Of a DNA stretch of 64,000 bases, positions 46,190-54,081 are shown piece by piece; the first letter of the stretch is position 1; every line of letters begins with the position of its first letter. Source of the DNA: Saprospiraceae bacterium (GTDB lineage Bacteria; Bacteroidota; Bacteroidia; Chitinophagales; Saprospiraceae); the NCBI GenBank assembly GCA_027488135.1, contig JAIYCH010000022.1, forward strand, positions 62,001 through 126,000. Direction: 5' to 3'. The translations under genes were made by a program, and so were the position numbers. The notes below the pieces were generated by a model that made no database searches, was not told where the DNA came from, and saw only the letters and a program-made list of their open reading frames with translations.

Positions 46190-48367
46190 ATGCGATTATA
46201 CACACATAGTTTCTTAGCCATCTTCTTTTCCCTATATTCCTTACCCATTTTATCAGCGTGCCAGTTTAAGCCCAAAAACTTAAATTATTTTCCTCTTATT
46301 CAGTCATTTATAGTAAATCCAACCGCTCCTGCTTCCCCGTATTTCACCTCTTTTAAAGATATATATTTAAAGTTTGGGAAGCAAACTATCCTTCAACCCA
46401 ATGAAAATATTAATGAGTGGTATGAAAGATTTTGCGAAGTAGCTCCTCTTTCAGATATTGAATGGCTAATTTATCAATCTGACTTATCTGATATACAAGA
46501 ATTAAAGAATGCTGTAATTCAAAATACAGGATTAATCAGCTACCTAAGGACCAATAAATTTGCCCGACATTTGGTAAAAAATAAGTGCCTCGAAACCATT
46601 GAATATCTAATATTTGCCAAGAAATGCGAACCATTTGTTACAGCAGATAAAGATGCATGGGAAACCAGAAAACCAGATATTCAAAATATGGAATCATTGA
46701 TTCAAGAGGGTACAAAAGAATTTTTAACCATTGAATCTCACTATATCAGATTAAGAATGGCCTACCAAATCATACGATTAGCGCATTATTCGGGTCAATA
46801 TAGTAAAGTAAAATACCTGTACAACTACTTTACACCTAAAATAAATCATGCTCCAAGTACTATTCAGTATTGGATTGAGGGACATTATGCAGGCGCACTT
46901 AAAGCACTGGGAGAAAGAGCAAAAGCCGCTTATTTCTACGCCAGAGTTTTTCACCATTGTCCCGCAAAAAGAGAATCTGCCTTTTTAAGCTTTGAAGTCA
47001 GAACAGATAATGACTGGCTAAGCGCTCTTTCTTTGTGTGAAAATGACCAGGAACGCACCGCTCTGTATGCATTAAGAGCCAGTTTTAGAAATAGTAGAGC
47101 TGTCGATGAAATGATTGACATTTACAGTCTTCATCCAAAAAGCAACTATTTAGAATCTATTCTCATTCAGGAGATAGAGAAACAAGAAAAAAAGCCGGTA
47201 GTTGATTACATAAATAAGCTCGAAACTTTCGTAAAACAAGTCATTGATGAAAAAAAAGTAGCCCATCTGGAACTCTGGCTTCTGGCATTAGGGTATTTAA
47301 AATACTTAAATAACGATTATTTTGAAGCCAAATTGGCTTTTAATGCTGTATCGGATTATACCCAATCTAAAGCCCTACTGGAACAAATAGCCATATTTAA
47401 TATGGCCATTGAAATAAAAGAATGGGAAAAAATAAATGAGGAAGTTGCTCAACGTATCTGGGAATTTCAATCTGAAAATGAAGTATTTAACAGATACCCT
47501 ACCCTACAGGCATTATTATCAAAACAGGTTTTTCAAAGTTTGAAAAATAATGGAAATCCAGGGCTTGCCATTTTATATAGGTATGGATTTAATGCCGTAA
47601 AAGTTAATCCCAGTGAAGAGGTTATCCGTGATATAAAAGAATTAGCGAAAAAGGAAATTATTAATCCTTTTGAGAAGAGCCTCATTGTTCTTTCAAAAAA
47701 GCAATTCAATACTGAAATTCAAGCACTTTATGCCACCTGGCTAATGAGCTTAAATGAATGGGAGGCCGCTGAAAAGGCATGGGAAGAAATTTCCCTTTCT
47801 GATATCGAATTATTTGGAAAATCAAATCCATTTATTGAAAGATTAAATGAATGTGTCCATTGTCCGGTAAAATCAAATGAAAGACAATTAACCAAACCTC
47901 AAATTGTAGCTGAAATGTTAAAACTACAGTATGACATTAAAGCCAACAGAACTGAAAGTCCTCAATACTACTATAAAATGGGACTTGGCCTTTATAACAT
48001 GTCCTATTTTGGTTATGCATGGAACGTCCTCGATTATTTCCGAAGCGGCTCAAGCATTAAGGCTGAAAGGTTAGAAAATTCTTCAGACATAGTGGAACAC
48101 CCGCTTTTCGCTAACGGGAACAGAGAAAACCTTGATTTATCAAAAGCTTTAGGCTATTTTGAAAAAGCCATTTCAATGAGTACAGATAAAGAATTAAGTG
48201 CCAGGGCTACTTTTATGGCTGCGCGTTGCGAACAGAAAATGTCACATGTTACCAAAACAGCTAATAAAAGAAAGTATTTTGCCCTATTGAACACAAAATA
48301 CAAGGATACCCAATATTACGATAAAGTCATTGAAAGCTGCAAATATTTCAAATATTATGTCAACTAA
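46190..48367 (+). CDS. Large TPR-like lipoprotein
   Basis: 725 aa with a lipoprotein signal (1-24) ending in the lipobox LSAC, so Cys24 should be lipidated. The chain is almost entirely helical, with TPR-like units (for example IRLAHYSGQYSKVKYLYNYF, ALKALGERAKAAYFYARVF, ALGYLKYLNNDYFEAKLAF, MYKALGYFEKAISM-type repeats near the end). Such solenoids bind other proteins at the outer membrane. No catalytic motif is seen. It is immediately downstream of the Crp/Fnr gene, with a normal Bacteroidota start and no promoter between. No family name is assigned. Confidence 0.8.
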   Translation: MRLYTHSFLAIFFSLYSLPILSACQFKPKNLNYFPLIQSFIVNPTAPASPYFTSFKDIYLKFGKQTILQPNENINEWYERFCEVAPLSDIEWLIYQSDLSDIQELKNAVIQNTGLISYLRTNKFARHLVKNKCLETIEYLIFAKKCEPFVTADKDAWETRKPDIQNMESLIQEGTKEFLTIESHYIRLRMAYQIIRLAHYSGQYSKVKYLYNYFTPKINHAPSTIQYWIEGHYAGALKALGERAKAAYFYARVFHHCPAKRESAFLSFEVRTDNDWLSALSLCENDQERTALYALRASFRNSRAVDEMIDIYSLHPKSNYLESILIQEIEKQEKKPVVDYINKLETFVKQVIDEKKVAHLELWLLALGYLKYLNNDYFEAKLAFNAVSDYTQSKALLEQIAIFNMAIEIKEWEKINEEVAQRIWEFQSENEVFNRYPTLQALLSKQVFQSLKNNGNPGLAILYRYGFNAVKVNPSEEVIRDIKELAKKEIINPFEKSLIVLSKKQFNTEIQALYATWLMSLNEWEAAEKAWEEISLSDIELFGKSNPFIERLNECVHCPVKSNERQLTKPQIVAEMLKLQYDIKANRTESPQYYYKMGLGLYNMSYFGYAWNVLDYFRSGSSIKAERLENSSDIVEHPLFANGNRENLDLSKALGYFEKAISMSTDKELSARATFMAARCEQKMSHVTKTANKRKYFALLNTKYKDTQYYDKVIESCKYFKYYVN

Positions 48368-51485: not shown

Positions 51486-52262
51486 TTATGCTGAGGTTGC
51501 GAATAGCAAGGCGTTCATTTTTTCAGTATCTAAGGTTGGTGCAAACAAATGAGCTGAAACATTATCTTCATAGATAGAAATTTCCCACTCATCGGCAAAA
51601 TCCTTTGCTAAACCAGCCATTTTTGAGGCATAGAGAACCGATTTACCCTTTGAGATTAAAAAGTCCATCACCGAAATACGAATTAATTCATTAGGTTGCT
51701 GGCTCAAACACTTTTTCCTTACATTTTCCGCTGTTTTTTTATTCCACGGCATAGATAATTTGTGTGCTAAAGAAGCATGATTATTTATCATAGCCGTTCT
51801 ATAATCTCCCCACTCCAGCGTATTATTCTGTCTTTCGAAATAAGCAAAATGCATTTTTTCGGCCAATTCCTGATAAGATGTCCTGGACATAATGCGGACT
51901 AATTGCAAAATATTTAACACCTCTTTTTCCTCTAAAACAACCGCTTCAGATTCATATTTCATTATTTTCCTGGCAATTTCCAACTTATTTTTTGCCCCAG
52001 AATGTAAAACTATTTGCTTGGCTAAAGGCAAGGAAAGAAAATAATCGGTAACACCCTTATTTTCCGCACGCAGCCTAACGCTAAAATCTTTTAAAACAAT
52101 AGGCCTTCTAATGTCATTATCAAATATGTAACTATCTTTTAACCATCGTTTTATATGAATCGTAAACATGCCAGGATTAAAATCTAACAGATCATGCAAT
52201 TCTGAAGCTGTTATAGCATAAGAACCTTTTCGGCTCTTATATAGGTTAAGTTCATTTGCCAT
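51486..52262 (-). CDS. AntA/AntB-like antirepressor-domain protein
   Basis: 258 aa. Residues about 15-105 resemble phage antirepressor (AntA/AntB) N-domains: SYAITASELHDLLDFN, then HIKRWLKDSYIFDNDI, and DYFLSLPLAKQIVLHSGAKNK...ARKIM in the place of the family's Y-x-L-T-x-x-x-A-K-E-x-x-x-x...G-x-x-x-R-x-x-x block. The remaining 150 residues are helical and unrecognised. No other phage gene is nearby, so this is a domesticated or free-standing member. A palindrome (52276-52298) overlaps its -7 box, suggesting autoregulation. Function is inferred from fold pattern only. Confidence 0.6.
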   Translation of the reverse strand: MANELNLYKSRKGSYAITASELHDLLDFNPGMFTIHIKRWLKDSYIFDNDIRRPIVLKDFSVRLRAENKGVTDYFLSLPLAKQIVLHSGAKNKLEIARKIMKYESEAVVLEEKEVLNILQLVRIMSRTSYQELAEKMHFAYFERQNNTLEWGDYRTAMINNHASLAHKLSMPWNKKTAENVRKKCLSQQPNELIRISVMDFLISKGKSVLYASKMAGLAKDFADEWEISIYEDNVSAHLFAPTLDTEKMNALLFATSA

Positions 52263-52275
52263 TTCATTTAATTTT

Positions 52276-52298
52276 AAACAAATATATACAATTTGTTT
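52276..52298 (-). promoter_or_regulatory. Promoter with overlapping palindrome (probable operator)
   Basis: Perfect 8-bp arms AAACAAAT (52276-52283) and ATTTGTTT (52291-52298) are spaced by 7 bases. The left arm contains most of a minus-strand -7 box, TATATTTG (52279-52286), 17 bases before the antirepressor-like start. A dimeric regulator bound here would block the promoter. Confidence 0.6.
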
Positions 52299-52339
52299 TA
52301 ATTAGCAAATTATTTAAAACATTTTATTTAAAATAAATG

Positions 52340-52389: not shown

Positions 52390-54081
52390 ATGATAAGATG
52401 CTACTTTAAAGGTTGTCTAAGAATTTCTTTACTACTGGGTATGACATTAAATGTACTTCCCCTTTTCACCCAAGGTTTGCCTATTCCATTAGATAATCCT
52501 GGCATTGAATGGATTGAAAGACTCCAAATTAAGACGGGCATTAACCTGTCATCCCATTCTGCTTTAAAAAATTATCAACGAAAAGTCGTTTGGGATTTCA
52601 CCAAACAATTAGATTCACTGCCTGATTTGACCGAAGTTGACAGAGCTAATATTGCTTGGTTAAAAAATGACAATAATGATTGGGCAGACTCCACCTACAC
52701 AAGCCCTGAAAAAGGCATTTTTTCCTGGTTTTACCCTAGAAAATATCATGCCTTTGAGGTGAATACTCCTGATTTATCACTCAGACTAAATCCAATATTA
52801 TATTTACAAGCTGGGCCAATGGGCGAAAAATCCTATTTCTTCAATCAAAGAGGCATTGATTTTCGTGCCAATCTGGACCGTATTTACATTGCATTCACCT
52901 TATTAGAAACACAGGCATTATTTCCCACTTTCATGGATCGTTTATATGGTCAATACGAAACTATTCCTGGTGCTCACTGGGTTAAAACGGAAGCTTACCC
53001 AGAAATACTTGGGTTTCCCTACAGGTATGATTTTCTCAATGGAAAAGGTATCTGGGGTGCCAACATAAGTAAATTTTTGAATGTAGAAATGGGCTTTGGC
53101 AACCATAAAATTGGCAATGGGTATCGTTCCCTTTTACTCTCTGATATAGCCACTTATTATCCATATCTAAAGTTAAACTGGCAAGTTTGGAAAATACATT
53201 TTCAAAATATTTATAGCCAGTTATCAGCTTCCTCCTCAAATCTTACCCGGGACAGACTCGTTCCCAGGAAATACTTTGCCTCTCATCACATAAGTATTGA
53301 GCTTCTGCCAGGTTTGGAAGCCGGTTTATTTGAAAGTATTATTTTCTCCCGAGCCAATGGATTTGAGCTAGCTTATCTCAATCCGTTTGCCTTATATCGG
53401 GTAACCGAAGGCTCGCTGGGGAGTCCCGATAACATACTCATAGGCGGTGATTTCCGATGGAATCTGTTCAAATCTGTACAACTTTATGGGCAATTTATCT
53501 TTGACGAATTTAGATTTAACGAGCTTTTTGTGGAAAGAAGGGGCTGGTGGGGAAATAAATGGGGACTTCAGGGTGGTTTGAAATATATAGATTTCCTCGG
53601 CATTAAGCAACTTGATTTCCAATATGAATATAACGTAGTCAGACCTTACACTTATGCCCAATATAGAGCCGATGACATTTCCTATACTCACCATGCTCAA
53701 ATGTTGGCGCATCCATTAGGTGCAAATTTCAAGGAATCTCTATTTAGAATGCAGTATCAACCACACAGAAGAATTCACCTGGACGCTAAATATTTCCGTA
53801 TCAATAAAGGCCTGGATGAACAAAACCAGAATTATGGAGGAAATCCAATGGCCGATGGTAACAAAAGACCGCAAGAGTTTAATAATTTCACCGGACAGGG
53901 GTTAAATACCGACATTAACATCATCGCCTTAGATCTTCGCATAGCTTTAGGGCATCAGATATTTTGGGATTTTGGCTATTTTTCGAGAATTGAAAAACAA
54001 AGATCAAACCCATTACTTAAAGATGCTTATTGGAGAACAGGAATTAGAATGAATGTTGGCACTTGGAAAACGGAATATTAA
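52390..54081 (+). CDS. Wzi/RemB-like outer-membrane protein
   Basis: 563 aa with a signal peptide (about 1-29, ...LFTQ). The long strand-rich chain has the marks of the capsule-assembly Wzi family as seen in Bacteroidota (also related to gliding protein RemB): WGANISKFLNVEMGFGNHKIGNGYRSLLLSD, AYLNPFALYRVTEGSLGSPDN, and FQYEYNVVRPYTYAQY...SYTHHAQMLAHPLGANFKE. Wzi forms an 18-strand barrel that ties capsule polysaccharide to the cell surface. The gene is transcribed separately from the phosphorylase that follows. Confidence 0.82.
   Translation: MIRCYFKGCLRISLLLGMTLNVLPLFTQGLPIPLDNPGIEWIERLQIKTGINLSSHSALKNYQRKVVWDFTKQLDSLPDLTEVDRANIAWLKNDNNDWADSTYTSPEKGIFSWFYPRKYHAFEVNTPDLSLRLNPILYLQAGPMGEKSYFFNQRGIDFRANLDRIYIAFTLLETQALFPTFMDRLYGQYETIPGAHWVKTEAYPEILGFPYRYDFLNGKGIWGANISKFLNVEMGFGNHKIGNGYRSLLLSDIATYYPYLKLNWQVWKIHFQNIYSQLSASSSNLTRDRLVPRKYFASHHISIELLPGLEAGLFESIIFSRANGFELAYLNPFALYRVTEGSLGSPDNILIGGDFRWNLFKSVQLYGQFIFDEFRFNELFVERRGWWGNKWGLQGGLKYIDFLGIKQLDFQYEYNVVRPYTYAQYRADDISYTHHAQMLAHPLGANFKESLFRMQYQPHRRIHLDAKYFRINKGLDEQNQNYGGNPMADGNKRPQEFNNFTGQGLNTDINIIALDLRIALGHQIFWDFGYFSRIEKQRSNPLLKDAYWRTGIRMNVGTWKTEY

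Follow-up and report, generated by a model that had tools for sequence, protein, structure and literature searches.

A relative of phage AntA-type antirepressors kept in Saprospiraceae chromosomes, with a candidate S24-repressor operator at its promoter

The window, a stretch of 64,000 nucleotides from a Saprospiraceae bacterium, carries a gene for a two-domain AntA-type protein that is related to phage AntA-type antirepressors and is now stably kept in Saprospiraceae chromosomes. An inverted repeat upstream of the gene is conserved in the family and shares its half-site with the promoter of an S24-family repressor gene. Comparison of these upstream sequences indicates that a LexA-like repressor, and not the AntA-type protein itself, most likely controls the AntA-type gene. 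The model as a whole, in which a former phage AntA gene would be repressed by the S24 protein and released after damage to give a DNA-binding regulator, is somewhat probable. If true, a phage antirepressor has been kept as a host gene by a bacterial family and wired to a LexA-type repressor, the repeat is a candidate operator for the S24 repressor in Saprospiraceae, and the protein hints at the origin of the orphan Deinococcus protein DdrC. The features are as follows.

51486..52262, (-) strand: gene of the AntA-type protein, 258 aa (ORF, ATG start)
51951..52262, (-) strand: N-domain, residues 1-104, predicted AntA/KilA-N-like winged helix (Pfam AntA matches in 41 of 81 family members; Mbp1 fold match)
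51489..51947, (-) strand: C-domain, residues 106-258, helical (profile alignment with phage AntA proteins; model pLDDT 78)
52276..52298, (-) strand: perfect palindrome AAACAAAT-N7-ATTTGTTT of the initial annotation, over the -7 box (from the sequence)
52279..52286, (-) strand: Bacteroidota-type -7 box TATATTTG (read from the sequence)
52294..52321, (-) strand: putative operator, inverted repeat TGTTTTAA-N12-TTAAAACA (unique in the genome, conserved)
52306..52309, (-) strand: -33 element TTTG, within the operator (read from the sequence)

The AntA-type gene and its phage relatives

The initial annotation described a gene at 51486-52298 with an AntA-like N-domain, about 150 unrecognised C-terminal residues, a palindrome at its promoter and no phage gene nearby, and the observation as a whole is borne out. 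The ORF covers 51486-52262, and the other 36 bases of that range are promoter. The window protein alone matches Pfam AntA (PF08346) weakly (E = 0.1, 13.7 bits, below the 27-bit cut-off), whereas its family does better, with the matches of the 41 members at E ≤ 0.05 and a best value of 1.3e-5. The C-terminal residues form a domain of 153 residues that is shared with phage AntA proteins. Alignment of the chromosomal and phage profiles with hhalign gives 99.8% and an E of 1.2e-30 over 217 columns, and the homology spans both domains. A match of the window protein to an unrelated housekeeping family was looked for and none was found.

Phages encode the same two-domain protein, in agreement with the phage origin proposed initially. 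In G017 the gene lies on a 7.6 kb contig beside a virion-protein ORF, and its product features a clear AntA domain (1.1e-16), a match to the phrog_5817 anti-repressor family (2.1e-18) and the same C-domain as the chromosomal form. The C-half of the G017 protein as query retrieved four IMG/VR contigs, and the phage alignment A4 retrieved eight loci. The gene is located between terminase and portal genes in phages L124 and L133. Chromosomal-form queries gave no match among viral contigs, and the window protein gave none among phage records and plasmids. Phage AntA/AntB proteins (PF08346, phrog_5817) share the N-domain family with the window protein and, in phages, the arrangement of N-domain and C-domain; the window gene differs in being chromosomal, single-copy, below the Pfam cut-off and without phage neighbours found. 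The phage copies L124:3315-4067, L133:4986-5762, L132:3366-4118 and L125:2413-3165 are apparently separate transcription units in a moron-like placement.

Profile A3, made from the window protein and 80 loci (80 kept of 126 relatives), matches 171 of 398 Saprospiraceae-family genomes with a single copy in each, one of them split over two contigs and one of them being the G017 phage contig. The family genomes are related, so the carrier and promoter counts given here are not independent. Five of the six other genomes of the genus carry the gene at 93-96% identity, and a phylum-wide draw gave matches in 3 of 395 genomes, all of the same family as the window genome. The relatives with an organism name, among the 126, are Saprospiraceae, Phaeodactylibacter, Lewinella, Neolewinella and Flavilitoribacter, and the remainder carry broader names such as Bacteroidetes or Chitinophagales bacterium. 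A search of the window genome with Pfam AntA gives no match at E ≤ 0.1. Fifteen pairs within the genus give a dN/dS of 0.05-0.10 at a dS of 0.11-0.36, so the gene is under purifying selection. Seventeen N-domain-only loci were also fetched (L136-L152, mainly from genus g230), which encode 111-147 aa, one of them with an in-frame stop.

The ten neighbour proteins between 43.5 and 56.5 kb belong to metabolic or regulatory families or to none: ABC transporter, methyltransferase, DUF983, Crp-type regulator, methylmalonyl-CoA mutase, 3-keto-disaccharide hydrolase, phosphorylase and serine hydrolase, with 2 of the 10 unmatched. Neither a phage family nor a defence gene was found among these ten proteins, and the description of a free-standing chromosomal gene holds, at one copy per genome. 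Among 126 adjacent proteins of 76 relatives there is one ClpP-like head-protease match, and the 25 of 43 families listed for these proteins include no terminase, portal or integrase. Of the 96 clustered loci, 24 have the methylmalonyl-CoA mutase gene (window:48464-50614) near the AntA-type gene, with some genomes counted twice; four loci (L030, L040, L065, L077) were left out of the clustering as the target was not recovered there. The recurrence of the mutase suggests an old chromosomal position. The ORFs at window:52390-54081 (563 aa) and 46190-48367 (725 aa) have no Pfam match at E ≤ 0.001, and the former is divergent from the AntA-type gene at a distance of 127 bases.

The protein may alternatively be a BstA-like prophage-defence factor, now chromosomal and tempered by a DNA element near its start, which is considered highly improbable. 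By its description (PMC8585504), BstA has a KilA-N-like N-domain, a separate C-domain and a DNA element at its own locus, a plan in common with the window gene, and its aba element differs in being direct-repeat based and in spanning the start codon. The phage copies also look like separately transcribed cassettes, with a terminator hairpin immediately upstream of the gene in 4 of 9 (L125, L132, L134, L135) and with the L132 copy on the strand opposite to both neighbours. However, the only defence-family signal in PADLOC is a weak match of the window protein to Cas1 over residues 79-165 (E 0.006-0.025), which is missing from five relatives, and the defence or counter-defence role proposed in the initial annotation was not upheld. 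PADLOC gave no BstA match for the window protein, in a library that may not include BstA. The neighbours without defence genes and the stable single copy also argue against such a factor; defence genes are not usually kept as a single stable copy in each genome.

The model of the whole protein has a pLDDT of 82.7 and a pTM of 0.60 and features a winged-helix-like N-domain. The best matches of the model are Mbp1 and DdrC. Mbp1, compared as a representative of the KilA-N/APSES winged-helix fold, aligns over some 80 residues with Z-scores of 7.1 and 6.8 at an rmsd of 3.0. Foldseek searches of the PDB with the model gave nothing at E ≤ 0.001, and a BFVD search gave eight matches, of which three are named antirepressor proteins. 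Deinococcus DdrC (7udi, 7qvb) has a winged helix followed by a helical domain, the order also predicted for the window protein. Its match to the whole model has a Z of 5.9 over 167 residues, and the rmsd of 14.9 means that the two domains of the model sit in another relative position than those of DdrC. DdrC ranks first for the C-domain model alone (pLDDT 78.0), with Z-scores of 5.1 and 4.7 and the next unrelated protein at 3.2. The Mbp1 and DdrC matches are leads rather than proof of relation. A DdrC-like role, in which the protein would be damage-induced and would bind, bridge or compact DNA generally rather than at a specific sequence, is improbable as an alternative; it draws on the match of both domains and on the report that DdrC is itself damage-induced under a repressor (PMC5436757). 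Against it, all Z-scores are below 8, the whole-chain rmsd is near 15, identity is 10-13%, and DdrC has no match to profiles A3 or A4 at E ≤ 10. Such an output and control by the S24 protein are compatible and can be true together.

The operator upstream of the AntA-type gene

The palindrome of the initial annotation, AAACAAAT-N7-ATTTGTTT, is present and overlaps TATATTTG. TATATTTG and TTTG are presumed to be the -7 box and the -33 element, by the Bacteroidota consensus. The palindrome has no second exact copy anywhere in the 4.2 Mb genome. All five other genus copies that were scored have it intact, and outside the genus a single upstream has it exactly; it is found at 13/16 in 33 of 84 upstreams outside the genus versus 4.5 in shuffles. 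Although it is real, the family-wide operator appears to be a larger repeat that overlaps it and had been overlooked, TGTTTTAA-N12-TTAAAACA, which is more widely conserved. This repeat is likewise the sole exact copy in its own genome, and a search allowing spacers of 9-15 finds it a single time in every one of the 6 genus genomes with the AntA-type gene, always before that gene. With the half-site taken from the genus only and identical upstreams counted once, the repeat scores at least 13/16 in 62 of 84 distinct upstreams outside the genus, versus 10.4 (maximum 18) in shuffles, and 40 of the 62 matches sit 65-69 bp from the ATG.

A chance palindrome is ruled out by its uniqueness in the genome and its conservation. 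The operator probably does not serve the divergent neighbour at 52390-54081, which is present in 6 of 96 clustered loci, all of the genus, while the operator stays with the AntA-type gene. A wider regulon in the same genome was also rejected: the three one-mismatch sites are all inside ORFs. In G036, G021, G024, G022:C46 and G011, exact repeats were found close to or within other ORFs, and no further target is claimed from them.

The operator was first read as the mark of an autoregulated switch. A meaningful operator does cover the promoter, and self-control fits less well than S24 control. In self-control, the AntA-type N-domain would bind the repeat and limit its own expression, and the S24 promoters would be a second target or would have the box by ancestry; this is rather unlikely. 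The main reason to consider it is that 13 upstreams among the 17 N-domain-only loci retain an exact TGTTTTAA half-site, differently arranged, versus 2.4 (maximum 6) in shuffled sequences. The single exact operator per genome, always before the AntA-type gene in the genus, and an N-domain that looks like a DNA-binding fold point the same way. However, the repeat is missing upstream of the nine phage copies (10-12/16), and the half-site is kept before the S24 gene in 4 of 7 genomes without the AntA-type gene, with which S24 control fits better than self-control.

The S24 repressor and the common half-site

In genus g230 the half-site motif precedes the gene of an S24-peptidase repressor (L155, L156, L159; Pfam S24 1.9e-12), where it lies in the best-conserved block of the intergenic region. 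The idea of S24 control came from inspecting motif matches, and the control promoters and the site in the window genome were examined afterwards. With identical upstreams counted once, the exact 8-mer half-site is found in 64 of 88 AntA-type gene promoters and in 25 of 39 S24 promoters, the latter made up of 21 of 32 in carriers and the 4 of 7 in non-carriers. The controls, from which divergent first neighbours were left out, contain it in 13 of the 1057 promoters of neighbour genes and in 4 of the 226 AT-rich promoters, and shuffles give 3.4 (maximum 9). The S24 gene of the window genome (L224:2027-2782, 251 aa) has TGTTTTAC-N12-TTAAAATA at 15-42 bp before its ATG, a 14/16 match, and in G022 an exact repeat sits before the S24 gene. 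The box common to both promoters, present before S24 even where the AntA-type gene is missing, makes the S24 protein the candidate binder.

The two genes also co-occur. With the g230 S24 protein as query, 245 of 398 family genomes match at E ≤ 1e-10, the window genome included, and the match is found in 161 of 171 carriers of the AntA-type gene versus 84 of 227 non-carriers. By genus, in a tally made by hand from the match lists and with the phage-only genus g12 among the 48, S24 matches at E ≤ 1e-10 occur in 48 of 48 genera with the AntA-type gene versus 26 of 64 without it, and at E ≤ 1e-60 in 47 of 48 versus 13 of 64. In an alignment of ten S24 proteins, AFAG, VKYV and either GNSM or GSSM are retained, which we take to be LexA/CI cleavage and catalytic motifs; the window genome thereby has an S24 repressor with residues of the cleavage type (L224:2027-2782).

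Several results count against S24 control. The exact 8-mer is absent from 24 of 88 AntA-type gene promoters and 14 of 39 S24 promoters, the arrangement of half-sites differs between the two, and ten carriers have no S24 match, perhaps owing to incomplete assemblies. The known SOS motifs CTAA-N5-TTAG and GGA-N5-TCC are found in 0 of 88 AntA-type gene promoters and 0 of 40 S24 promoters.

Proposed mechanism and known systems

In the proposed mechanism, two inverted TTGTTTTAA-type half-sites would form an operator covering the promoter of the AntA-type gene. The likeliest binder is the S24-family CI/LexA-type repressor of the same genomes, whose own promoter has the same half-site. Inactivation of this repressor, probably by self-cleavage after DNA damage, would allow the AntA-type protein to be made, and we infer that the protein would then regulate by binding DNA, perhaps as an antirepressor that releases S24-type repressors from their sites.

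Salmonella prophages are triggered by antirepressor genes directly under LexA (PMC3121763). Compared by description, Gifsy GfoA and GfhA have the wiring proposed here, an antirepressor gene under a LexA-type repressor, and differ in being small proteins located in Salmonella prophages (PMC3121763). By this analogy, Gifsy-like wiring without the prophage would be the best reading of the Saprospiraceae gene. A 2021 paper, whose main text does not name Saprospiraceae, reports that CI-type S24 proteins repress the SOS response of other Bacteroidetes, where the motifs are different (PMC8565304). This non-canonical LexA is likewise a CI-type S24 protein with its own promoter as a target, and the operator motifs described for it are absent from the Saprospiraceae promoters studied here. 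An extension of the model, which is rather doubtful, is a host-owned switch built of two phage-type parts, in which a CI-type S24 substitute for LexA would repress the AntA-type antirepressor gene and be inactivated by its product, giving a sharp damage trigger without a prophage; DdrC of Deinococcus would then stem from another, separate capture of this two-domain phage protein.

Two minor observations concern related motifs. In two genomes (L160:1547, L161:1547), the gene of a double-zinc-ribbon protein is preceded at about 65 bases by a copy of the g230 motif with one mismatch. The G008 genome, which is without the AntA-type gene, contains the palindrome TGTTTTAAGTTGCAAACTTAAAACA four times (L231:1647, 2968, 7445, 7664), and two of these copies are some 50 bases away from 198-aa ORFs that are identical to each other and by eye resemble REP-associated transposases.
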